A stretch of 64,000 nucleotides of DNA, from positions 501,686 to 565,685 of the forward strand of contig NW_022985188.1 of assembly GCF_010093535.1 (NCBI RefSeq), given 5' to 3'. Shown here piece after piece: positions 1,158 to 12,672 of this stretch. This stretch comes from Lindgomyces ingoldianus (Eukaryota; Ascomycota; Dothideomycetes; Pleosporales; Lindgomycetaceae). A model generated the notes under the pieces. The model ran no database searches. It was given only the letters and a program-made list of their open reading frames with translations, and was not told the origin of the DNA. The position numbers and the translations under genes were made by a program. The first letter of the stretch is position 1. Each line of letters begins with the position of its first letter.

Positions 1158-2808
1158 AGAGGCCTGCGGCTTATAGGTGTCCTTGTTGCAAGGTGTGTGT
1201 TCGCTTCCTGCCTTGGTCTAGTAAGTCAGCTCCCTTACTCTCTCCATTCGAAAAACCCGTTAATGGCAGATAGGGTAACACGATGGTTCCTACAATAGCC
1301 CCGAAGATATCAGATGAGTTTGATGATCTACGTAATATTGGATGGTACTGTTCTGCGAATCTACTAGCGGCGAGCACAATGGAGCCGATCTTTGACTTAA
1401 TGGACACTTGGTTCTCGCCTAAATGGATCCTCCTATTGCGTGTGGTGTTTCTAGTGGCCGGGTGGATGGTATCAGGGTTTGCACGAACATCCACTATCTT
1501 GATCGTAGGCAGATTAATTTCTGGGGTGGGAGTGGCCGGGGGTCTGAACGGAATCTCTCACCTTCTGGCAATCGCGGTTCCGCCACCTGTACTTGAAAAG
1601 CACTGTAACTTCTTGATGGGCATGTCATACGAACTCTCTCGGATTGGAGGATTGTTGTAGGCACTCTATGAACCTAAGTGGAGATCCTGAGCTTACGTCG
1701 TTCTAGTTTTGGAGCCGCGCTTGCCGATTCCCTCAAATGGCGCTGGTGTTTCTACCTTATTTCCGGCTTTATGTTACTTGTACCCATATTTGCGATTCCC
1801 CTGCTTGAAGACTCAAGAGTTGTACAAGGCCGATGGCCAAACTTCTGGAAAATTCAACACTTGTTGGCTATATTGTCTTCTTTACCCACAATTTGCTTGC
1901 TTCTTGCTATGCATTGGGGTATCCGGGATGGCTGGGGAGCCGCAAAAGTGATCTCATTGTTTGCTCTTGCTGGAATATACCTTACATTTCGTTTCCTTTA
2001 CACTTGGAAAGCTGGTCCCGCCGAATTACACTTGCTCTGTATAAATATCACGTTTGGGGCTTCGTTTTACCCTCTACTTTACCTCCTCCGTAAGTCAACG
2101 ACCCTCGTTTTCGCGTGTTAACAACATTATTGACGGTACGCAGCGATTTGGCTCCAAGCTCTACAAGTAAGCAATACTATTGACGGAAGTGTAATGTTCC
2201 TTCCTGCCATAGCAACCCTCTCTGTAGGGGCCATTCTAGGAACCAGTCACATTATCCCAAGGACGATATCGTTCATGGAAGTCCTCTTTTTCTATTCTTG
2301 TGTGCTTATGGCAGTAGGATCTGGGCTATTATCCACGCTTCGAGTGGACAGCGGCCAAGACAAGCGAATAGGGTACCAGGTTCTATTTGGTCTTGGGGCT
2401 GGTCTTGGGGCTAGCCTCGGGGTGCGCACAGCAGCGCTCTTGGAGACCATCAAAAATGAGCACCGATTGGACAATCCATCGACTGTGCGAAGAAGCGAAG
2501 TATGTGGAGGCGCCCTCGCAATCGGAGCAGCGCAAGTGGTCCTCCAGACACAGCTCCTCAAAGGCGCACCGGAAGTGGCGTCACTCCTGAAGACTGGAGC
2601 TACTTCGTTTAAGAACAGCACCAGTCCAATCCCGCCCTCATTATTGATCGGCTACAATACTGCTTTGACTCGGGCTTTTCTTGTCTCTGCTGCAGCAAGC
2701 ACGTTGGGAGCTACGGTCAGAATAGTCGTATACATTACACACCGGCTTTCAACACGTCAACCTCCATCTGAATACCTACCCAGGCCTGATGAGCTGGAAC
2801 AGGAGTAG
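1158..2808 (+). CDS. MFS transporter, 14-TM drug/toxin efflux type, start not found
   Basis: Four exons join in frame: a TM1-like exon ending at 1220 before GTAAGT, then 1274-1656, 1707-2089 and 2144-2808. The product reads NTMVPTIAPKISDEF, IGWYCSANLL, LIVGRLISGVG, a WRWCFYL motif and LPIWLQA, the usual order of DHA14-type major facilitator proteins that export small molecules across the plasma membrane. About ten or more hydrophobic segments are visible. The oddity is the 5' end: the TM1 frame has no ATG before a stop at 1071, and the neighbouring gene's frame ends at 1152 only a few bases upstream. The gene may have lost its start by deletion or frameshift, or an upstream exon is not recognised. 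No efflux substrate can be inferred. Confidence 0.6.
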
Positions 2809-3692
2809 GAGCCAGGACTATAATGTTAAATCACCTACCTCTGTCTGAATTTGGCATTTACCCTCAAACTCAACGCTACGTTCCTGCTGAACTGGCTACT
2901 CCTCCTCCTACTGAACTGGAGTTATTGCCAATCTCCTCTTCTCACCGTTTTCTATCACCCTATTACAGAACTATCTATTCTATACCTGTCAAAAAAACCT
3001 GACTACTCAAGGACAATAAAGTGGAGGTAAAAGACCGTACCCGAGGAGATCCCGTACATAAATGCTATAGTATTAGAGATTAGTGTGGCGTTTGGGTATG
3101 TGAGAATATGACTGCGACCTAGGGGGAGAAGACCCAGTCAAGCAAATTAATAATCTAACCCTTTTATATTAACCCCCCAATATTTTCTTTATCTCCTTTT
3201 ATCAATGAAAATGTTGGGACGGAGAATATATAAGGTATGGTAAATGATGGAGCGACTAGGCGACCGGATTTCTAGAATGTGAGTATTGTCTCTCGCAGAA
3301 GGAAGCTCTTACGCAAGATACTAGTTACACTATAGTCTAATGGACACTATGAATGGAGCATGCTGTGGGAAGACTTAAGAGCCATCTGATATTTCTGGCG
3401 ATATTGTGTTTTCTTTTCCGAAATACCTCAGATTATATGCTATTACGTGCCGCAGCAGAGCCTACCACCCGGTAGAAACCAAGTAGAGAAGAATGAAATC
3501 TTGAAACGCCTTCCGCTGTAGATTTAATGGCCACTAGCTATTTACGGAACACACTAACACTAGTTCTTTCGGGGGCATTCAGACACCCCTTTAGTTTCCC
3601 ACACCGCATTGTCATTTCCCTATGTACAAATATCTACATCACACACAGCACTTCCTTCCCCCCGTACTCCCACATCTCAATCTCATCATCCC
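2809..3692. other. Intergenic, no gene seen
   Basis: This stretch separates the 3' ends of the MFS gene and the GH43 gene, which converge. It is moderately AT-rich and I see no coding pattern, tRNA or transposon end. It should hold the terminators of both genes. Confidence 0.6.
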
Positions 3693-4778
3693 TCACGGAT
3701 ACTTCGCCCCCAACGCACTCACCACCACCGCATTCACCGGCAACACGGCGCCATGTCTCAAATTCTTCGGAAAATTCGCCCTATCACTGGCCGTCCACCC
3801 CGCATTTCCCTTCTGCACATCAGTCGTCTCAAACGGCCTATACCCGTCACTGCCATAAAAATCCAACAACACATGCGCCTTCCCAGCAGCTTGATTATCC
3901 CAATACGCCGCTGGGCCCTCCACCCCCGACTGGATAATCGCAGACGCACCACCTGGACGTGTCCATGTGCCGAAGAGGCCAGTTGAGGAGAGCTCCATGA
4001 ATACCGTCTTTGCGGTTTCGTCTTTCATAAACCGCGCATATGACGAGCCGCCGATAGGCAGGATATCTAGGTCGATGATATTCGTTGGACTCTTATTAAT
4101 ATAATCCTGGGGCGCGGAAAACGTCTTGAAATCCTTGGTATACGCATATCTGATCCTAATAGCACTGGGACTCCCCGTGTGTTTCGTATCACTAGTCGGA
4201 TAGAATTTGCTCGCCCAATGTACGAAATACTCGCCTTTCGCCTCATCCCAGAGTGCTTCCGGCGCCCATACCATCCCCGCTGTTGCATCCTCCACTACGA
4301 CTAACCTCTCGTTACCCCAGGTCACAAGGTCGTTGCTTTCCCAGACGAATATCCCACGACTGCCTGTGCGTTGGGCGGCGTCCCATGTCGTTTTCCCAAT
4401 GTTGAGGTCAGTGCCGATGATGTACCATTTCTTGCCAGCTTCGCTACCACCGCCGGGGACAATAGCGGGATCGCGGACACCCCCGGTGCCTTTTGTGGCG
4501 GTGATGACGGGGTTGCCTTTGTTAAGGGCTTTAAAGGAGAGGGCGTTGTTGCCGTTGGAGAGGTAGAAGTATATGCTGGGTTTGTCGCCTAGGAAGAAGG
4601 CGCCGAGGTATCCGGTTAGAGAGGGGTCGGCACGGGAGGTGAGGGCGTTGGTGTTGGCATCGGTATTGGTGGCGGGGAGGTAGGAGGTTAGGTTTAGGGA
4701 TTGGTAGATTGGGGTAGAGAAGGTGGGCGTGAAGAGAGCGAGGAGGGGAGCGTAGAACAGCGATATTGATGACCGCAT
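3693..4778 (-). CDS. Secreted glycoside hydrolase family 43-like protein
   Basis: A single-exon protein of about 361 residues. I chose the Met at 4776-4778 because it begins a signal peptide (MRSSISLFYAPLLALF) followed by small residues; an in-frame Met 24 codons upstream would bury that signal. The body carries motifs of the five-bladed beta-propeller family GH43: GGVRDPAIVPG near the first blade, WESNDLVTW, and WAPEALWDEAKGEYFVHWAS. GH43 members cleave arabinofuranosyl, xylosyl or galactosyl bonds of plant polysaccharides outside the cell. I cannot assign the subfamily or substrate. Length is normal for a one-domain secreted GH43 enzyme and there is no binding module. It is transcribed away from yju2. 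Confidence 0.75.
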   Translation of the reverse strand: MRSSISLFYAPLLALFTPTFSTPIYQSLNLTSYLPATNTDANTNALTSRADPSLTGYLGAFFLGDKPSIYFYLSNGNNALSFKALNKGNPVITATKGTGGVRDPAIVPGGGSEAGKKWYIIGTDLNIGKTTWDAAQRTGSRGIFVWESNDLVTWGNERLVVVEDATAGMVWAPEALWDEAKGEYFVHWASKFYPTSDTKHTGSPSAIRIRYAYTKDFKTFSAPQDYINKSPTNIIDLDILPIGGSSYARFMKDETAKTVFMELSSTGLFGTWTRPGGASAIIQSGVEGPAAYWDNQAAGKAHVLLDFYGSDGYRPFETTDVQKGNAGWTASDRANFPKNLRHGAVLPVNAVVVSALGAKYP

Positions 4779-5537
4779 GTTGTTCAGAATTTCGGGAATG
4801 CTAGCCACTGAGGCATGCAAGCAAGGAATAGTACAACAAGTCGAGCTCAATTGGACTTGAAATTGACAAATTGCTGATCGAGCTTAGACAGAAGAGAGAC
4901 GTTGAAGTCCATACTTAATAAGAAAATGGGACCTGGTTGCCGAGCTTCATCATAGGCTGGCAGCTATCTATCCTATAGGAGCGAAATCTAAAATCCGGTG
5001 GTGTCGTTATTGCAATATATTTGCTTCCGGGCAGAAAAGCGGAGGTTGAGGCTCTTTAGGCGTTTAACCCTGTGTGTTGTGTCACATGCGGAGGTTTTAG
5101 ATTGGGATTTTAGGGTAGGGGCTGTGATTGGCTGCGTCAACGCTTCGAAGCGTTTGATGTTCCTGTCAGTTCGAACGCGAAGGCAGAATCGAAATTGGTC
5201 GTGTGCTGGAATTCCCCACTGAAGCTAAAAAGGCCCTTGACTGATAGACTCGGCTAGGAAGGACAGGAGAATATTGTTTCGAAAGGGTTCAGTGCTGGGA
5301 AGGAAAAGTGAAGCATCTGATTGATATGATGATGCTATGTCAATGTAAGATTCCCGAACACCGTTCATGCTTCGCCAGATTCTACTCTCTGAAATTGTTG
5401 CTCTTTTCAGAGAGTGGATGCCGTGAAGAGGGTTCTAAAACGTCCGGGAGGCTATACCACATCATGGATCCATTCAAGGCAGAGCATGGAAAGCTCTATA
5501 CGATCGATAAAGGTGGAGTGGATGCAAAGAGTGGGTT
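4779..5537. other. Intergenic: GH43 promoter and yju2 3' flank
   Basis: Both flanking genes are on the minus strand, so this holds the GH43 upstream region and the yju2 terminator. No coding sequence is recognisable. Confidence 0.6.
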
Positions 5538-6419
5538 TCAGTCACTGTCTGAGCCGTACCCGTCGAGGAGTACAGCCGATTTCGCTGGGGTGGGCTTTGG
5601 TGGGTCTGTGAAAGCTGGGACTGGTGGTGTCGAGGTCTGGACGGGCTTCTTCTTGATGCCCAGAGCGGCGCTCGCATCCTTCTTCGTCTTGACCTGCTTT
5701 GTGAATGTCGGTATTGGCGCTGCTGCTGGTGGCGCGGCTTCCCACTCCTCATCGTCAATCATTTCTTCCCCAAGATCGAGCAAGGACCTCCGCTCGAATG
5801 CCCTCCTAGCAGCCTCCGCATCCTCCTCTTCCTGCCTCTTCCGCTCGTCGTCCACAACATCCGCGACGTCGGCTACATCCGTCTTCGTCCCCTCCTTCTC
5901 CGCCTTCTCGATCCTCGCATTCCGTGACCGAATCTCATCCAATGCATCCGCGATAGCCATCTCTGTCTTCGCATCGAGCACTTTTGTTTCTAATTCCTTC
6001 ATGGCATCGTGCTCCGCCTCCTCTCTCTCAAGCCTGTCCAGTCTCTCCTCTTCCGTCTCCTCAGCCAACTTCGCCTCTCTCCACGGCTCAAAATTCCGTT
6101 TCGCGCCCTTCTCGCACTCGTAATCCATATTCTTCGGATCTGTCTTGAAGGTGATTTCTCCGCTACATCTCGTGCACCGAATGTAGAAGCGGTAGACGAC
6201 GATGTTGTAGTACTTCTCGTCGGAGGTTTCTTTACGCGCGTTGAACTTTCGGCCTTTGTAGATGAACTCGCCACAGTGCGTGCATTTCATAGAGAAGGGC
6301 GCCATCAGACGGACGGTTTGGAGTTTCTTAGGCCCGGTGGATTTGCTGCGGTTGCGGCCGAGTTTGGAGGGGTCGAAGTCGGGAGGGTAGTATTTGGTGA
6401 GGACTTTTCGCTCGGACAT
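5538..6419 (-). CDS. yju2: Pre-mRNA splicing factor Yju2/Cwf16 (CCDC94 family)
   Basis: An intact 293-residue protein that begins MSERKVLTKYYPPDFDPSKL, the hallmark N-terminus of the CWC16/Yju2 family. Two CxxC pairs (C46/C49 and C82/C85) form the zinc-binding core, followed by YNIVVYRFYIRCTRC and KTDPKNMDY. A long charged coiled-coil region (about 110-220) and a disordered basic tail follow. Yju2 joins the spliceosome with the Prp19 complex and promotes the first catalytic step of splicing, acting in the nucleus. The gene is a single exon here and looks complete. It is a housekeeping marker just outside the unusual locus at 7.4-11.2 kb. Confidence 0.93.
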   Translation of the reverse strand: MSERKVLTKYYPPDFDPSKLGRNRSKSTGPKKLQTVRLMAPFSMKCTHCGEFIYKGRKFNARKETSDEKYYNIVVYRFYIRCTRCSGEITFKTDPKNMDYECEKGAKRNFEPWREAKLAEETEEERLDRLEREEAEHDAMKELETKVLDAKTEMAIADALDEIRSRNARIEKAEKEGTKTDVADVADVVDDERKRQEEEDAEAARRAFERRSLLDLGEEMIDDEEWEAAPPAAAPIPTFTKQVKTKKDASAALGIKKKPVQTSTPPVPAFTDPPKPTPAKSAVLLDGYGSDSD

Positions 6420-7439
6420 AGTGGCGGTGGATCAGATGAAGAGCTAGACAGGAGGGATGGGTTGTGTTTTGGGGGGTCCTTGTATTCGGTGAGAGTATCG
6501 CGAGCGTGAGGTGTTGTGGTTGTTGAATTGTTGGAGTGCCTGCGGCGAAATAACTAAGCTAACTAACGCGTGCCCCCTGCGTAGCGAGACACCCTGTGTG
6601 GCGAGACAAATAAGGGCTACTTTGACTTTCAGCAGCTGAAAAGTCCATGCGCGCAACAAAGTTGTTATAATTCTATAGGGATGACCTACTGGAGCCAATT
6701 CTAAATGCCTATAGTCAACACTTTCCTAAAAGTTACGTTTGCACTGTCACCTCTGCGCCTGATTTATACAGCGCCTTCTTTTGTAGCGTAATAGACTTAC
6801 CCCCCTACAGCTTTAATGGTAAGTCTTTCTTGCTCCTACTTTTCATAAAATAGCCTTATACTAGCCCCAAACCCTCCCTCTAAACTTAGAAGTCATCATT
6901 AGCCTTGTGCGCGCTGTTGTGGGCAAATTCATACACGGCCGCCATGTCGATTTGGTACTTCTAGCGGAAGCGAACACTGATCCTAGCTAACGCGAGATGA
7001 CTCCGCGCGTATTTAACGATTGACTTGGAGCAGCACAAGGACTCACCCGACCCCAGCGCTGGAAATGATCCTTAATTAATCCGTATATCTCTCCGCAGTG
7101 CCATCCATTCTAGACGGTCATGACAAGGGGGTAGCTATTGCGGCTCGGTCTTCCTCCCTGCTTGTGGTGGCGAACTAAAGTATCTTATGCATCAATTGTG
7201 TGCTTATACGTACCTAGTCACATTACCACAGAGCCCTTTTTGCTTGAAGAGGATATGGATCAAAGAGTCTTCGCATCAGCAGTCCTACTGAGGTTTATCT
7301 AAAACATTAGTCATTATAGTACGCTTGCTATAAAGACAAGCAACATAGATAGAAAAAGTGTACATGTAAGTTCTGCTTAAAAGGGTATATCAATTGCGTA
7401 CATGTACCCATTTCTCCATGAATCCTGGCGTAAGGTCGT
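6420..7439. other. Intergenic between yju2 and the HET gene
   Basis: It holds the yju2 promoter and the HET gene 3' flank. No open gene is visible. Around 7161-7192 there is a short segment that matches, in inverted orientation and with mostly C/T and G/A differences, a segment at about 11437-11475 beyond the HET gene, which may be a decayed repeat. Confidence 0.5.
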
Positions 7440-10400
7440 TCACACAAGTCGTATATCGATCCTCTGTTTTACGACGTAGTCGCTTTGTATCGATCCAACA
7501 CCAATCCTTCTATACTCGCCATCCACACCGGTTGACTTGACAATTAGAATATAGAATTCTTGAATACCCCTATTGCTTCTCCTTCCTACAAGAACACATT
7601 GTTCTTTGCGAAGATCTTGACCTCCCTCAACGTCATACTGCATCCTCCCTCTTTCTACTCCACTATAATCCAAGACCGTACACTGTGTCTCATAGAGTCT
7701 TGTTGTACAGTTCTGAAATGTCCATAGGTCGGCGATTATGGCGTGGTCGCATTCGCACTTCTCATCAAATAGGAGGTGATCATTCCACTCAACTTCACCT
7801 AGGGTGATGTCCATGAACTGAATGCCTCCACTACATGCCATCCATGACCAAGATGGCACATAATAATCGTACGCAATCTCTTTCATCTTGTTGTTCGATG
7901 CCTGCCAAAGGAGATTCCTATGAAAGTACTTCTGGAAGATGCCATATCTGCTATGACAATTTAAAGCACCCTCCATACGAACCACCAAACCAGATATTGC
8001 AACGTATCGGTCAGTTGGGACAGTAAGAGTCCGCATTGAGTAATCCTGGAAAAGGAAAGCAATACAGTCTAGCGTACGTCTCATGCCTGATCGAATGAGC
8101 CGATCCGGGAAATTTGGATCTAGTATAAAGTACCTGTTTGTTACAGGGCTATAAATCAAGATGTTTTCGTCAGACAAATGTTGTCAACAGGATTTTAAGC
8201 TCTTACCTCCGTAGCCGGGTAAGGTTCTCGCAGTAAATCCCTTCGCCACATTCCCAGTATGTCTGATTGGCACTAAAATGGATAGTACGTCGCGACAGAA
8301 CCCCTTCCTGCATTACCCAAGCTCGCTTGTTAAGTAGCGCATTGCCAACATCATTGTTAAAATCATCTATATCAGTGCTGATATAGAACTGTTTGCCGGA
8401 AGCATCTTGAACATAGACATACTCAGTGCTTACGTCCCGCTTAAGGAACCCTGCTTTAGAGTTGACTGCCGCAGTTGCAGCAATTACGCAGTGAGCGTGC
8501 GAAAAGACAGTTTCCATTTTCCCAGATTCCAATTCCCAATCTTTACCATTATCTCCATCTTGGATGATGCAGAGTGAGTCAATCCAGAGATAGGAGATGT
8601 CAAGCTCTCGGGTCACCTTAACGGCGTCTTGGAAAGTCTTTGGTAGTTCAGAAAGACTAAATCCTTTGGACCGCTGAATAATATTATCCCGAGTTGTACA
8701 GTATACTTTCTTCTCTTCAATTGATGGATCACCCCAGCAGTGAGATAATGCGACATATTTCTGCTTGGCTATCTCTGAGACAGATACAAGACGGATAAAG
8801 TCTGAAGCGTAATCTAAATCCTTTGGATTACCAACGTAGAGGACTCTTGTCGGCATTGCTATTTTGGATGCATCTTGGCCCTTGTGGCAACTATGAAACT
8901 TGTCGCACTGACGAAGCCATGCGCGAAGGAGTGCAAATTGCGTAGGGCTTTCACGCTCAGGTAGAATTGGGAGGCCTATTGGGATATCGCGTCGCATTCC
9001 AGTCGAGTTCTCTGTTTCAATATATACAGTAAGTACTGCTTTTCTCTAGCACGCAGGAATATTCAAGAACGGACCTGGATCCCAACAAAACCGTACAAGA
9101 CGTGGGCCTTCTTTTACTCGAAGTGCTGAGTGAGTTCGCTCTATGTGTATATTTCCGTGAGCACCGTGGAACCGCTGAAATGCTTGAAGAAGCAATTTGC
9201 AAATCGAACAGTTTTCTGCAGAAGTACCGATATCAGAAAGACTAGTGCGGTAAGTGGTATTCGTATGAGCCTCAGCTACGAGTGCGCTGCAGTAGGAACA
9301 AACGTGGATGATATCAGGTAGCGGACGTAGTCGTAAACTCGAGAGAAACTGTTGTGCAAAGTGGTTGTCGAAATGAAGAAGCCAATCTTTGCGAAACTCC
9401 TATTCCCTAGTTAGTCTACTGTCTACACTTTCACGGTCAACTTACCCTCTACACCACCAGACACACCTGCATTAGCAGCAGCCTCGCGCCTCAGTGTTCG
9501 CAGGTCAACTTACTTCCTACCCACCAGACACACTGGCATTAGCAGCAGCTTCGCGTCTCAGTGTTCGCAGGTCAACTTACCTTCTATACCACCAGACACA
9601 CCAGCATTAGCAGCAGCCTCGCGTTTCAGTGTTCGCAGGTCAACTTACAAACTACATCACCAGACACACCAGCATTAGCAGCAGCTTCGCATTTCAGTGT
9701 TCGCAGGTCAACTTACGTCCTACACCACCAGACACACCAGCATTAGCAGTAGCCTCGCGTTTCAGTGTTCGCAGGTCAACTTACGCCCTACACCACCAGA
9801 CACACCAGCATTAGCAGCAGCCTCACGTCTTAGTGTTCGCAGGTCAACTTACAACCTACACCAGCATTAGCAACAGCCTCGCGTTTCAGTGTTCCCGGGT
9901 CAACTTACCACCTACACCACCAGACACACCTGCATTAGCAGCAGCCTCGCGTTTCAGTGTTCGCAGGTCAACTTACGTACTACACCACCAGACACACCNN
10001 NNNNNNNNNNNNNNNNNNNNNNNNNNNNNNNNNNNNNNNNNNNNNNNNNNNNNNNNNNNNNNNNNNNNNNNNNNNNNNNNNNNNNNNNNNNNNNNNNNNN
10101 NNNNNNNNNNNNNNNNNNNNNNNNNNNNNNNNNNNNNNNNNNNNNNNNNNNNNNNNNNNNNNNNNNNNNNNNNNNNNNNNNNNNNNNNNNNNNNNNNNNN
10201 NNNNNNNNNNNNNNNNNNNNNNNNNNNNNNNNNNNNNNNNNNNNNNNNNNNNNNNNNNNNNNNNNNNNNNNNNNNNNNNNNNNNNNNNNNNNNNNNNNNN
10301 NNNNNNNNNNNNNNNNNNNTTCGCAGGTCAACTTACCTTCTACACCACCAGACACACCAGCATTAGCAGTAGCCTCGCGTTTCAGTGTTCGCAAATCAAC

Positions 10401-11151
10401 TTACGCCCTACACCACCAGACACGCCAGCATTAGCAGCAGCCTCACGTCTTAGTGTTCGCACGTCAACTTACGCCCTACACCACCAGACACACCTGCATT
10501 AGCAGCAGCCTCGTGTCTTAGTGTTCGCACGTCAACTTACCTTCTATACCATCAGACACACCAGCATTAGCAGCAGCCTCGCGTTTCAGTGTTCGCACGT
10601 CAACTTACCACCTACACCACCAGACACGCCAGCATTAGCAGCAGCCTCGCGTTTCAGTGTTCGCAGGTCAACCTACAAACTACACCACCAGACACACCTG
10701 CATTAGCAGCAGCTTCGCGTCTCAGTATTCGCAGGTCAAATTACCTTCTACACCACCAGACACACCAGCATTAGCAGCAGCCTCGCGTCTCGGTGTTCGC
10801 AGGTCAACTTACCACCTACACCACCGGACACACCAGCATTAGCAGCAGCCTCGCGTTTCATTGTTCGCAGGTCAACTTACCACCTGCACCACCAGACACA
10901 CCAGCATTAGCAGCAGCCTCGCGTTTCAGTGTTCGCAGGTCAACTTACTTTCTACACCACCAGGCACCAGCATTAGCAGCAGCCTCACTCATCAATATAG
11001 GCGTAGTAGTAACTCACTTCCTAAGACGTCGTACTTTAGTTTAATGTTAATTCTCCTAGGGAAGTACTTGCCTTCTAAACTAGATTATTAGCTTGACAAA
11101 AAATACTAAGACGAACTAGAGGAGTACCGTAAATGAGCACTTATTGTCCAT
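7440..11151 (-). CDS. HET-domain (heterokaryon incompatibility) gene with a microexon array in its 5' part
   Basis: Large exons are 9075-9399, 8207-9011 and 7440-8148, joined in frame by introns 9012-9074 (GTCCGT...CAG) and 8149-8206 (GTAAGA...TAG). The first holds two CxxC pairs (VCSYC, NCSIC). The second holds the HET domain: KYVALSHCWG, LPKTFQDAVKV, YLWIDSLCIIQDG, KMETVFSHAHCVIAATAA and NKRAWVMQEG. HET proteins trigger cell death when genetically different hyphae fuse. Exon 9075-9399 has no in-frame Met and begins directly after a 46-nt intron (9400-9445, ACTAAC branch, ATAG acceptor), so coding must start upstream. Upstream lies the 68-nt array, read as phase-0 one-codon exons, and then a possible first exon at 11128-11151 (MDNKCSFT). 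Unsure: the first exon, and whether 9012-9074 is an intron or contains a nonsense codon. Confidence 0.7.
9446..11020 (-). repeat. 68-nt tandem array of intron-like units with variable one-codon 'microexons'
   Basis: Every unit on the minus strand has GTAAGT near its start, TGCTAAT about 24 nt before its end and a terminal TAG or CAG; the intron part is 65 nt in nearly all units (64 at 9517-9580, 53 at 9856-9908, 66 at 10952-11017). Between acceptor and next donor lies a variable triplet. In transcript order: 11018 GAA, 10949 AAA, 10881 GTG, 10813 GTG, 10745 AAG, 10677 TTT, 10609 GTG, 10541 AAG, 10473 GGC, 10405 GGC, 10337 AAG, (gap), 9977 TAC, 9909 GTG, 9853 GTT, 9785 GGC, 9717 GAC, 9649 TTT, 9581 AAG, 9514 GAA, 9446 AGG (number is the lowest plus-strand base). 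A further one, 11072 AAG, lies just outside, between non-repeat introns. No triplet is a stop. Changes at signal positions keep function: 10676 gives GTAGGT, 10884 gives CAG. Confidence 0.9.
9999..10319. other. Assembly gap (run of N) inside the tandem array
   Basis: The gap is 321 N. The triplets on either side are 360 nt apart, which is not a multiple of 68, so either the gap length is only an estimate or a unit of unusual length is hidden. About five units would fit. Confidence 0.98.
11128..11151 (-). other. Possible first exon of the HET gene (ATG plus seven codons)
   Basis: ATG at 11149-11151 opens eight codons (MDNKCSFT), then GTACTC at 11127. A 53-nt intron (GCTAAT branch, TTTAG acceptor) leads to triplet AAG at 11072-11074. 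A 51-nt intron with a GC donor (GCAAGT) leads to GAA at 11018-11020, and the array follows. All joins are phase 0. The donor GTACTC is weak, so the start is tentative. A CTATAAG-like element lies about 40 nt upstream. Confidence 0.4.
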
Positions 11152-12672
11152 ATTTCTGCTCACAATAAGTACTAGAAGTGTACTTATAGACAAAAAAATT
11201 AGTAGAAAATCAAGTATCTAAGTTGTATAATTTGCAGTGAAAGAATGCCTCTAAGTTGTGGTTGCAAAGATGCGGAGTCCGATTACGGCTGCCTAGATGT
11301 GCCGGTCCTACAATTGTTCCGATTTTAAGCGGCCTTCTTGGTGCGGCAAACTAATTAGATGAGGTGCCGAAGCGAAGCAAATCACTGCATAGCAATTGTT
11401 TTGGTGGCAGTATCTTTAAGCTGACGGTTGCCGCATAACGCATAAGATACTTCGGCTCGCCCCTACTAGCAAGGCGGATGGCCGACCTGTTCTGGCCACT
11501 CTCTTGCCGTGAACGTCAGTGACTGAGGATGACATTCAGCCCTGGATAGCCTAGTGTCTGGCCGTCATCACAGCTCTGCTCTACCGTACCCAGCCATTAC
11601 GAACACAAGCCATCCGAACTGTTCATGATCCATGCACGGAGCCGTTCCATGTTTGGCCATACAATAGCTGTATCACCAAAATATATCAAGCTTTCCACCT
11701 TCGTCTGTGTTTGCAACGATGGGGTGCTGTATGTGACATTAAACCCACTCGCCGAGGCGTAGGCTTCAATTTCTAGGGCCACCTCACTCTACCCGATCTC
11801 ATATTTGTACGGATGTATTCCTCTTCAACAAACCGAGACTAGAGATTGGCTGCTGCTTGGTCTGGACATTAGGCATGCTTGGACGCGAGAACCATGACGA
11901 CGTAGTGGGCTTTGGTTAGGTCATTCGTTCAGTAAGTGGAGGAGACATTGGCGGATGGCTATGTCGAAGCTGGTTTTGACCCTGACACGTGTTGGCTGAC
12001 TACGCGAGCGCCGGGATCGACTGAGTCACTCGCACTGCTCCTAATCCTTGGCCGGGTTTACTTATCTTCCGAGTGTTTGTGCCACCAACCTGACAGTAAA
12101 TTAGAAGTACCACACAGTGAAGCGACCTTACGTGAATTTACCTGCGACAGCGCGCACAAAGCTTACAGTGACTTCCCAGCAGGGGGCTCTGAGGCTAGGA
12201 TAAGGCTATTATTCAACGAAAATTCAGAGCGAAAAAGGCTTGATGTTGACGCTGTAGGGAGAGAAGTCTGTCATGCCATGAAAAAAAGAGCTGTAAAAAT
12301 TAGGAGCGGAGGCAACCATGCAAACGTAACTTCTAGGAAAGAGTCGATCATGGATAAGCAGAAGTAGCTAGATTTGTAGCAATATTTTTTGCGTGCATAA
12401 CCTCTCCAGCTGCTGGAAGTCAATGTTCTCGCTATGCAGGGAAGGACGTTAGTTAAGCTGGTAAGTTACGCCCTATGACTGACTAATCACGCCAAGGCCC
12501 TAATGGTTTCCCCACCACGTGCGCCCGCGATTCACAGGCGCGACTCGGCGGCAACGTGAAATACACAAGCGCAACTCTCTCACTCCCCGTGGCCCCCATA
12601 TCTCCTTGCAACGTTTGTGTACAAAAAAAAATAGACTTACACCACATCTAACCTGCATGGGAGCGCGCCATT
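11152..12672. other. Intergenic: HET gene and cdc16 upstream regions
   Basis: The HET gene and cdc16 are divergent and share this 1.5 kb. An open frame of 143 codons at 11936-12367 has no recognisable family and unusual composition, so I do not call it. About 11437-11475 resembles, inverted, the segment at 7161-7192. A 9-bp inverted repeat (11139-11147 and 11162-11170) surrounds the proposed HET start. Confidence 0.5.

Follow-up and report, generated by a model that had tools for sequence, protein, structure and literature searches.

Predicted chains of single-codon exons ahead of a HET gene and at related loci in Lindgomyces ingoldianus

We analysed a stretch of 64,000 nucleotides (the window) of the genome of Lindgomyces ingoldianus (Pleosporales), which is part of contig C27 of the assembly searched (68.4 Mb, 99 contigs). 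On its minus strand the window carries an intact HET gene, ahead of which lies an array of predicted, mostly near-identical introns that are separated by single nucleotide triplets. The layout strongly supports a predicted N-terminal chain of 3-nt exons in phase 0 and in frame with the HET gene. With a probability of roughly three in four, splicing would join the single-codon exons of this array, each contributing one residue, into a variable tail at the N-terminus of the HET protein. The array of the window is called C27 in the following, and the other loci of the same genome are C56 (L009), C25 (L043), C13 (L042), C61 (L044) and C10 (L010).

The array and the HET gene of the window

The first coding exon is predicted at 11128..11151 (minus strand, like all exons and introns of the gene), comprises 24 nt from ATG to ACG, encodes MDNKCSFT and ends at the donor GTACTC. 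Counterparts of this leader stand at the same place in C56 (MENKWSFT) and in the degenerate copy C61 (ATGGGGAAAAACTGGTTATTTACA). The next two exons are the microexon AAG (K, 11072..11074), which has a GC-AG intron with the donor GCAAGT and corresponds to AGG in C56 and to AAG in C61, and the microexon GAA (E, 11018..11020), which is alike in C27, C56 and C61. An upstream block of ten microexons (AAA GTG GTG AAG TTT GTG AAG GGC GGC AAG, 10337..10951) with 65-nt introns and a 68-nt period is separated by a gap of 321 N (9999..10319) from a downstream block of nine microexons (TAC GTG GTT GGC GAC TTT AAG GAA AGG, 9446..9979) with introns of 53-65 nt. The last intron of the chain (9400..9445, GTAAGT...TAG) leads to the HET exon. 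Altogether 21 triplets with ten distinct codons are visible, and they read KEKVVKFVKGGK, the N gap and YVVGDFKER.

Their spacing is mostly 68 nt, with exceptions of 54, 69, 56 and 67 nt. All 21 are flanked by an acceptor AG and a donor, which is GTAAGT in 17 of 21 cases and GCAAGT, GTGAGT, GTAGGT and GTAATT once each. The claim of a preliminary description of this DNA that at least 21 sense triplets stand between splice sites was thus confirmed at every position. Its further statement, that each 68-nt unit is a short intron plus a triplet, applies to most units: from the second triplet on, each intron repeats a 65-nt sequence that contains TGCTAAT and TAG. The two introns ahead of it (11127-11075 and 11071-11021) do not derive from this unit, and in the third, which follows GAA, the 5' half of the copy has diverged. 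Runs of N interrupt the arrays of C27 (window 9999-10319), C56 (L009 3896-4706) and C13 (L042 5977-7337), so that unit numbers at these loci are minimum counts. Runs of N also lie within the NLR-like or HET-like loci L046 and L049.

The HET exon that follows the chain (9075..9399) starts with EFRKDWLLHFDNHFA, contains no Met and begins directly after the acceptor, at 9399 and in phase 0, exactly as the preliminary description had it. It is followed by a 63-nt intron (9012..9074, GTCCGT...CAG), by an exon with the HET domain PF06985 (8207..9011; 1.2e-30 for 8997-8203) and by the last exon, which runs to the stop codon (7440..8148) and is identical to the annotated L. ingoldianus protein P0018. 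There are no internal stops in the three exons 9399-9075, 9011-8207 and 8148-7440, and the domain lies in an intact reading frame and scores 107.2 bits against a Pfam gathering threshold of 22.5. P0018 is identical to the product of the window gene from Met 8997 onward. A pseudogene reading based on an in-frame TAG at 9048-9046 was rejected, since this triplet lies inside the 63-nt intron, whose position matches by eye that in P0003 and other annotated relatives. The HET genes of C27 and C56 share 78% nucleotide identity, with dN 0.18 and dS 0.63 over 607 aligned codons; judged by their sequences, the HET exons of both loci are under constraint. Among eight exon translations from C27, C56, C25 and C13, three matched HET, two matched protein kinase families and three gave no domain match; NACHT, ANK and WD40 were not found in any of the eight. 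Only a small share of HET genes has a known role in allorecognition (PMC10197012).

Codon variability and splice-site conservation

We aligned 18 units of C27 and 26 of C56, omitting units broken by N gaps as well as the first and the last triplet with their introns. Within the 68-nt unit, the triplet columns rank 1, 2 and 3 by entropy in C27 and 1, 2 and 4 in C56, which goes beyond chance. They average 1.58 bits in C27 and 1.55 bits in C56, the intron columns 0.245 and 0.247 bits. With gaps counted, triplets differ between units by 0.67 (C27) and 0.64 (C56) per site and introns by 0.12 in both arrays. Even where two introns are at most two sites apart, the triplets differ in nine of ten unit pairs of C27 and in three of four of C56. 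If gaps and the first unit of each array are left aside, the introns differ by 0.08 within C27, by 0.09 within C56 and by 0.11 between the two; they are more alike within than between arrays, a pattern that homogenisation inside each locus would produce.

The core splice columns (GT, CTAAT, AG) behave in the opposite way to the triplets. Eight of these nine columns are invariant in each array, which exceeds the expectation from the other intron columns (p = 0.0014 for C27, 0.0038 for C56), and the ninth reflects an alignment gap beside a 12-nt deletion in C27 and a single GC donor in C56. Near-invariant splice signals together with nearly saturated codons are not expected of a non-coding minisatellite. 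Beyond that, C27, C56 and C61 all retain the two leading microexons (K or R in the first, E in the second), although their introns have diverged. The 50 visible triplets of C27 and C56 encode 13 residue types; Ala, Ser, Thr, Ile, Cys, Met and Trp are absent from them, and Thr triplets are present in C13 and C25.

We also considered whether the unit might be something other than an intron with a codon. An RNA gene was dismissed, as Rfam returned only two matches far below gathering (19.2 of 35.1 and 18.5 of 36 bits), and so was a structured element, the folding of four units being no better than that of shuffled sequences (z = 0.60, -0.12, -0.17 and 1.31).

Related chains in the genome and in other species

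The preliminary description had proposed to look in related genomes for arrays of the 68-nt kind next to HET or other genes. Arrays of this kind exist within the same genome. A search with 555 bases of array DNA listed 12 matches, only at C27, C56 and C10, these counts being lower bounds; C13 and C61 were found by other routes. C56 is a HET gene with the leader exon MENKWSFT, 29 visible triplets and an N gap of 811. C61 is a degenerate HET copy with 24 stops in its HET match, which has the first two microexons AAG and GAA and a single repeat unit. By eye, C61 (L044 3000-5300) has perhaps decayed by repeat-induced point mutation, and it either has one repeat unit left or was never expanded. At C10 about eight units, 67% identical, make up an array that has decayed and is the only part that its 7-kb locus has in common with the HET loci. 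Read by eye, this array has lost one AG and one donor, whereas every visible unit of C27 and C56 retains an AG and a GT or GC donor. In C13 (L042 4269-7520), 77-nt units of intron and codon, with the triplets ACT, TAT, an N gap, GAA and CTT, sit between ATGAGTAAC and a protein kinase exon, and the 3' half of this unit is 87.5% identical to the HET arrays over 40 nt.

A different picture emerges at C25, the next HET relative, which is 51% identical over query residues 139-397. Here a kinase exon (PF00069) ending in phase 0 is followed by seven triplets between splice sites (AAT GAG TAT AGA TTT ACC CCG) and by a HET exon that starts in phase 0. The eight predicted introns measure 49-76 nt, Tandem Repeats Finder detected no array at the chain, and the pairwise alignment score of the introns is 1.5 compared to 50 for those of C27. 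The pattern [CT]AG-N(k)-GT[AG][ATG]G was counted in an interval of 581 bases that had been picked once the chain was noticed. It gave seven sites at k = 3, whereas none of the other values of k from 0 to 15 gave more than one; the seven sites form a single chain, and 20,000 shuffles of dinucleotide blocks never placed more than two in a row. A one-codon spacing that is kept where almost no repeat is otherwise left has no evident explanation in a minisatellite alone. The shared phase of its kinase and HET exons suggests that C25 (L043 1647-6310) is a kinase-HET fusion gene, joined via a chain of putative one-codon exons to a HET exon start without Met. C25 also suggests that the one-codon build can persist after its introns have lost their likeness.

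We defined a chain as at least three consecutive [CT]AG-NNN-GT[AG][ATG]G sites and scanned 30 of the 71 HET matches in the genome, fetched with short flanks of a few kb. Chains are present at three of the 30, namely the three best matches C56, C27 and C25, and none was found in the few kb fetched at each of the other 27. One in 12 kinase loci has a chain, and this is C25 itself, the other eleven showing none in the few kb fetched. No chain turned up in the terminal inverted repeat (TIR)-type loci L045-L050 or in the relic of a C13-like kinase on C34 (L063), and one pair of sites in L046 was taken as chance. All fetched sequence together, 286,641 bases in which overlapping loci count repeatedly, contains no chain of three or more when reversed. 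For chains of at least two, 263,249 bases gave 15 in the real and one in the reversed sequence. A genome-wide pattern of donor, AG-NNN and donor again led to C27, C56, C10 and C13, and also to a dispersed GTAAGTAGGCAC repeat and other scattered matches. The matches at C4 and C44 and the dispersed repeat were taken as transposon-type repeats and set aside; C44:49432-49649 and C4:184384-184557 are AT-rich, with GTAAGT at intron-like spacing and 3-nt gaps.

Among annotated relatives, the best 120 of 4,883 matches were considered, and a motif test showed seven of these to extend as far as the conserved beginning of the HET exon. The relative P0010, on a contig of 2,106 nt, has 14 residues (MVQDRDRVVRYEER) directly ahead of the conserved YNNW start of this exon. 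By eye it is spliced across both HET introns and is therefore probably derived from RNA; its tail, with a residue palette like that of the C27 triplets, is suggestive of a spliced tail. In P0054 (Phaeosphaeriaceae sp. PMI808), the annotated N-terminus has by eye about four stretches resembling AAANPxxFGGVG, and that of P0104 (Macroventuria anomochaeta) has one stretch TAANAVVSGGV. By eye, such stretches are what one frame of the repeat intron gives in its 3' half, and both proteins look like misannotated arrays with partly translated introns. As protein queries, the N-terminal regions of P0054 and P0010 matched nothing but these proteins themselves.

Alternative explanations, mechanism and known systems

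Several observations weigh against a spliced chain. Four of the seven relatives that reach the HET exon start have only two to four residues ahead of it (P0002 MPW, P0004 MS, P0063 MDH, P0099 MRVQ), so that a long tail is not needed by the family. The annotated model P0018 passes over the array and starts at Met 8997. As all exons are 3 nt long and in phase 0, removal of 9400-11127 as one intron would also keep the frame, and mixed or skipped forms are possible. With 3 nt from acceptor to donor there is no room for exon definition; splicing would have to proceed by intron definition, in sequence. The preliminary description was right that all triplets are sense codons, but this is weak evidence: zero stops in the 50 triplets of both arrays has P = 0.27 from positional base frequencies, and we dropped the absence of stops as an argument for coding. 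The lack of indels in triplets was dropped as well, too few units having indels. A permutation test reveals no significant link between the identity of a triplet and the sequence of its intron (p = 0.63 for C27, 0.06 for C56), although recent duplication of whole units predicts an association, which calls for very fast codon change or for separate conversion of the introns. The introns of C25 retain a trace of likeness, their score of 1.5 standing against 0.14 (sd 0.66) for shuffled introns. Finally, a paper from 2024 states that no earlier work had described functional microexons in filamentous fungi (PMC11121469); the truffle case discussed below is thus not universally cited.

Four other explanations have to be compared with the spliced chain. 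The array might be a minisatellite within one ordinary intron (11127-9400), with MDNKCSFT joined directly to the HET exon and triplets that never code. Such a join would be in frame, the lack of stops does not speak against it, and in P0037 (Lepidopterella palustris) a similar leader, MGAEKWKDSSFQ, is joined straight to YDGW. We nevertheless consider this quite improbable, because a minisatellite offers no reason for three near-saturated positions in a unit that is otherwise about 88-92% alike, leaves the near-invariant GT, CTAAT and AG unexplained and does not account for the seven triplets that C25 keeps between splice sites. A somewhat better, but still unlikely, case can be made for a chain that is spliced while its codons are under no diversifying selection, the triplet being a mutational hot spot or a neutral 3-nt spacer. 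The near saturation of the codons and the lack of a significant association with the introns fit this idea, as do codons that lie several substitutions apart (GAC, CCT, TTT, GGC). It is at odds with the first two microexons, which are kept in three paralogues with diverged introns, and with the restriction to 13 residue types, an objection that is weakened by the shared descent of the units.

Two further possibilities appear very unlikely to us. One supposes introner-like elements: copies of a single intron would have entered an ordinary N-terminal coding stretch between all of its codons, and the triplets would be no more than the old protein sequence. Variable triplets, near-identical introns and the absent association between the two would all be accounted for; however, insertion would have to strike phase 0 after each codon every time, the intron is found only in arrays (C27, C56 and C10, as a lower bound), unlike introners, and C25 has the same one-codon spacing with dissimilar introns. 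The other, which we regard as no less improbable, sees the array as a decaying relict whose transcripts now start downstream. The annotation of P0018 from Met 8997, the decayed array of C10 and the degenerate copy C61 are in line with such a fate. A start at Met 8997 would, however, lose 113 residues of the HET exons that can be aligned by eye in P0002, P0004, P0010 and P0037, and splice sites have been lost in C10 but in none of the visible units of C27 and C56. As to the central claim of the preliminary description, a chain of one-codon exons before a HET gene, the layout is present in the DNA and recurs in C56 and C25, while the retention of the triplets in mRNA is a prediction.

If the chain is spliced, the spliceosome would likely remove the introns in order by intron definition, and each 3-nt exon would join the growing 5' exon. 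Any number of units could probably be skipped in frame, so that one gene might give tails of different length and composition. Tandem duplication of units of intron plus codon is the most likely origin, and unequal exchange would likely let units be gained, lost and homogenised. Selection, or very fast change, would likely act on the codon, with introns that stay alike and codons that differ. The product would be a variable tail in C27 and a linker between kinase and HET in C25. One could speculate that the tail tunes recognition or binding by the HET protein, by analogy with the WD repeats of het-d and het-e.

The preliminary description knew of no gene of this build, which did not hold: the NACHT-ANK (nank) genes of the truffle Tuber melanosporum have codon-sized microexons of 3 bp and alternative splicing, as cited from Iotti et al. 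2012 (PMC4986451, PMC10197012). This precedent makes the spliced reading of the Lindgomyces chain more likely. In both cases several 3-bp exons, predicted ones in Lindgomyces, occur in fungal immune-type genes, which in the truffle were proposed to diversify the protein, and such exons follow one another in a row in the predicted Lindgomyces chains as they do in nank. The hosts differ, with NLR genes, a sensor domain and reported alternative splicing in the cited truffle accounts and HET-only or kinase genes in Lindgomyces, a Dothideomycete, where the chain lies N-terminally or between kinase and HET. At the level of sequence, Lindgomyces adds to the truffle kind HET and kinase genes, a Dothideomycete, tandem units that are nearly identical within two of the HET paralogues and, in the third paralogue, a chain that has diverged and seems to be old. 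The truffle belongs to the Pezizomycetes. It is conceivable, but more doubtful than probable, that fungi of at least two classes share or have repeatedly evolved a device of one codon per exon in immune-type genes (HET, kinase and kinase-HET in Lindgomyces), the units of which would be shuffled in DNA and skipped in RNA to give a combinatorial, Dscam-like repertoire of tails, with some copies in TIR-bounded elements.

Other known systems resemble the array in single aspects. The WD repeats of het-d and het-e of Podospora anserina are reported to undergo concerted evolution with four residues per repeat under diversifying selection (PMC1805685), and members of this family are described as carrying a HET domain (PMC4986451). 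These are likewise allorecognition genes with internal repeats of variable number; however, they repeat a WD40 protein unit, whereas the Lindgomyces repeat is nearly all intron with one codon left, and the NACHT and WD40 domains of het-d and het-e are not found in the eight exon translations from the Lindgomyces loci. The micro-exon genes of Schistosoma, as far as the cited account describes them, have many small exons (mostly 15 bp, and mostly multiples of three), skips that keep the frame, introns of 0.1-5 kb and secreted products (PMC10526429). Many small exons in multiples of three are predicted for Lindgomyces as well, but their length of 3 nt and introns of 46-76 nt set it apart, and tandem codon-sized units are not mentioned in the portion of that account used here. 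Near-identical spliceosomal introns of fungi, introner-like elements and sister stwintrons, are reported from many unrelated genes (PMC4457414, PMC8469720), unlike the Lindgomyces introns, which were found only in tandem arrays at one gene end (a lower bound). In Cryptococcus CNN00420, a duplicated unit of about 107 nt with a whole intron and exon ends is described in few copies and with polymorphic copy number (PMC2395259); head-to-tail copies of a whole intron with exon bases are seen in the Lindgomyces arrays, too. An account of tandem duplication and intron gain concerns, in the part cited, single new introns (PMC4974935). Very small exons are on record elsewhere: exons of 1 nt are reported for Fusarium CYP621A, with transcript support (PMC12940212), and for Arabidopsis APC11 (PMC4674806), human RPS24 is reported to have three microexons, which measure 3, 18 and 22 bp (PMC11162997), and a microexon switch is described for Trichoderma Xlr2 (PMC11121469). 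Exons of 1-3 nt can thus be spliced, also in fungi, which from the Fusarium case can splice exons below 3 nt, but these are single or few exons and not chains.

A spliced array would mean a gene with at least 21 one-codon exons, and with more if the N gap hides further units, in which mutation, exchange and splicing all act on single residues. The truffle case would be extended to HET and kinase genes and to Dothideomycetes, which would suggest a general route by which fungi diversify non-self recognition, and the odd gene models P0018, P0054 and P0104 might find an explanation. With dozens of acceptors that each lie 3 nt from the next donor, the array would also challenge models of splicing, and junctions at this distance defeat standard RNA-seq aligners.

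The surroundings of the array genes deserve a brief remark. In the window, a TIR-like arm lies at 6562..7214 and another inverted-repeat arm at 11438..12426 (limits approximate in both cases), the two being 72% identical over 220 nt; arms related to the latter are shared with the C13 kinase locus. Long inverted repeats bracket the array genes at C27 (6562-12426), C13 (L042 2556-9569) and C56 (L009 about 1751-9468). If up to three mismatches are allowed, a terminal pattern of 26 bases has 31 genomic matches, compared to zero for a control, and the two ends of the window element are too diverged to count among them. By eye, these matches include six inward-facing pairs 4-19 kb apart, and the cargo of such elements, including L048 and L049, comprises HET, kinase, a protein of 797 aa without known identity, a HET-like protein of 770 aa and a small, perhaps secreted protein. 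The element ends resemble TA + A(A/C)..., a putative target-site duplication. The downstream neighbour in the window (5538-6419) resembles what we take to be a splicing factor of the YJU2/CWC16 type.

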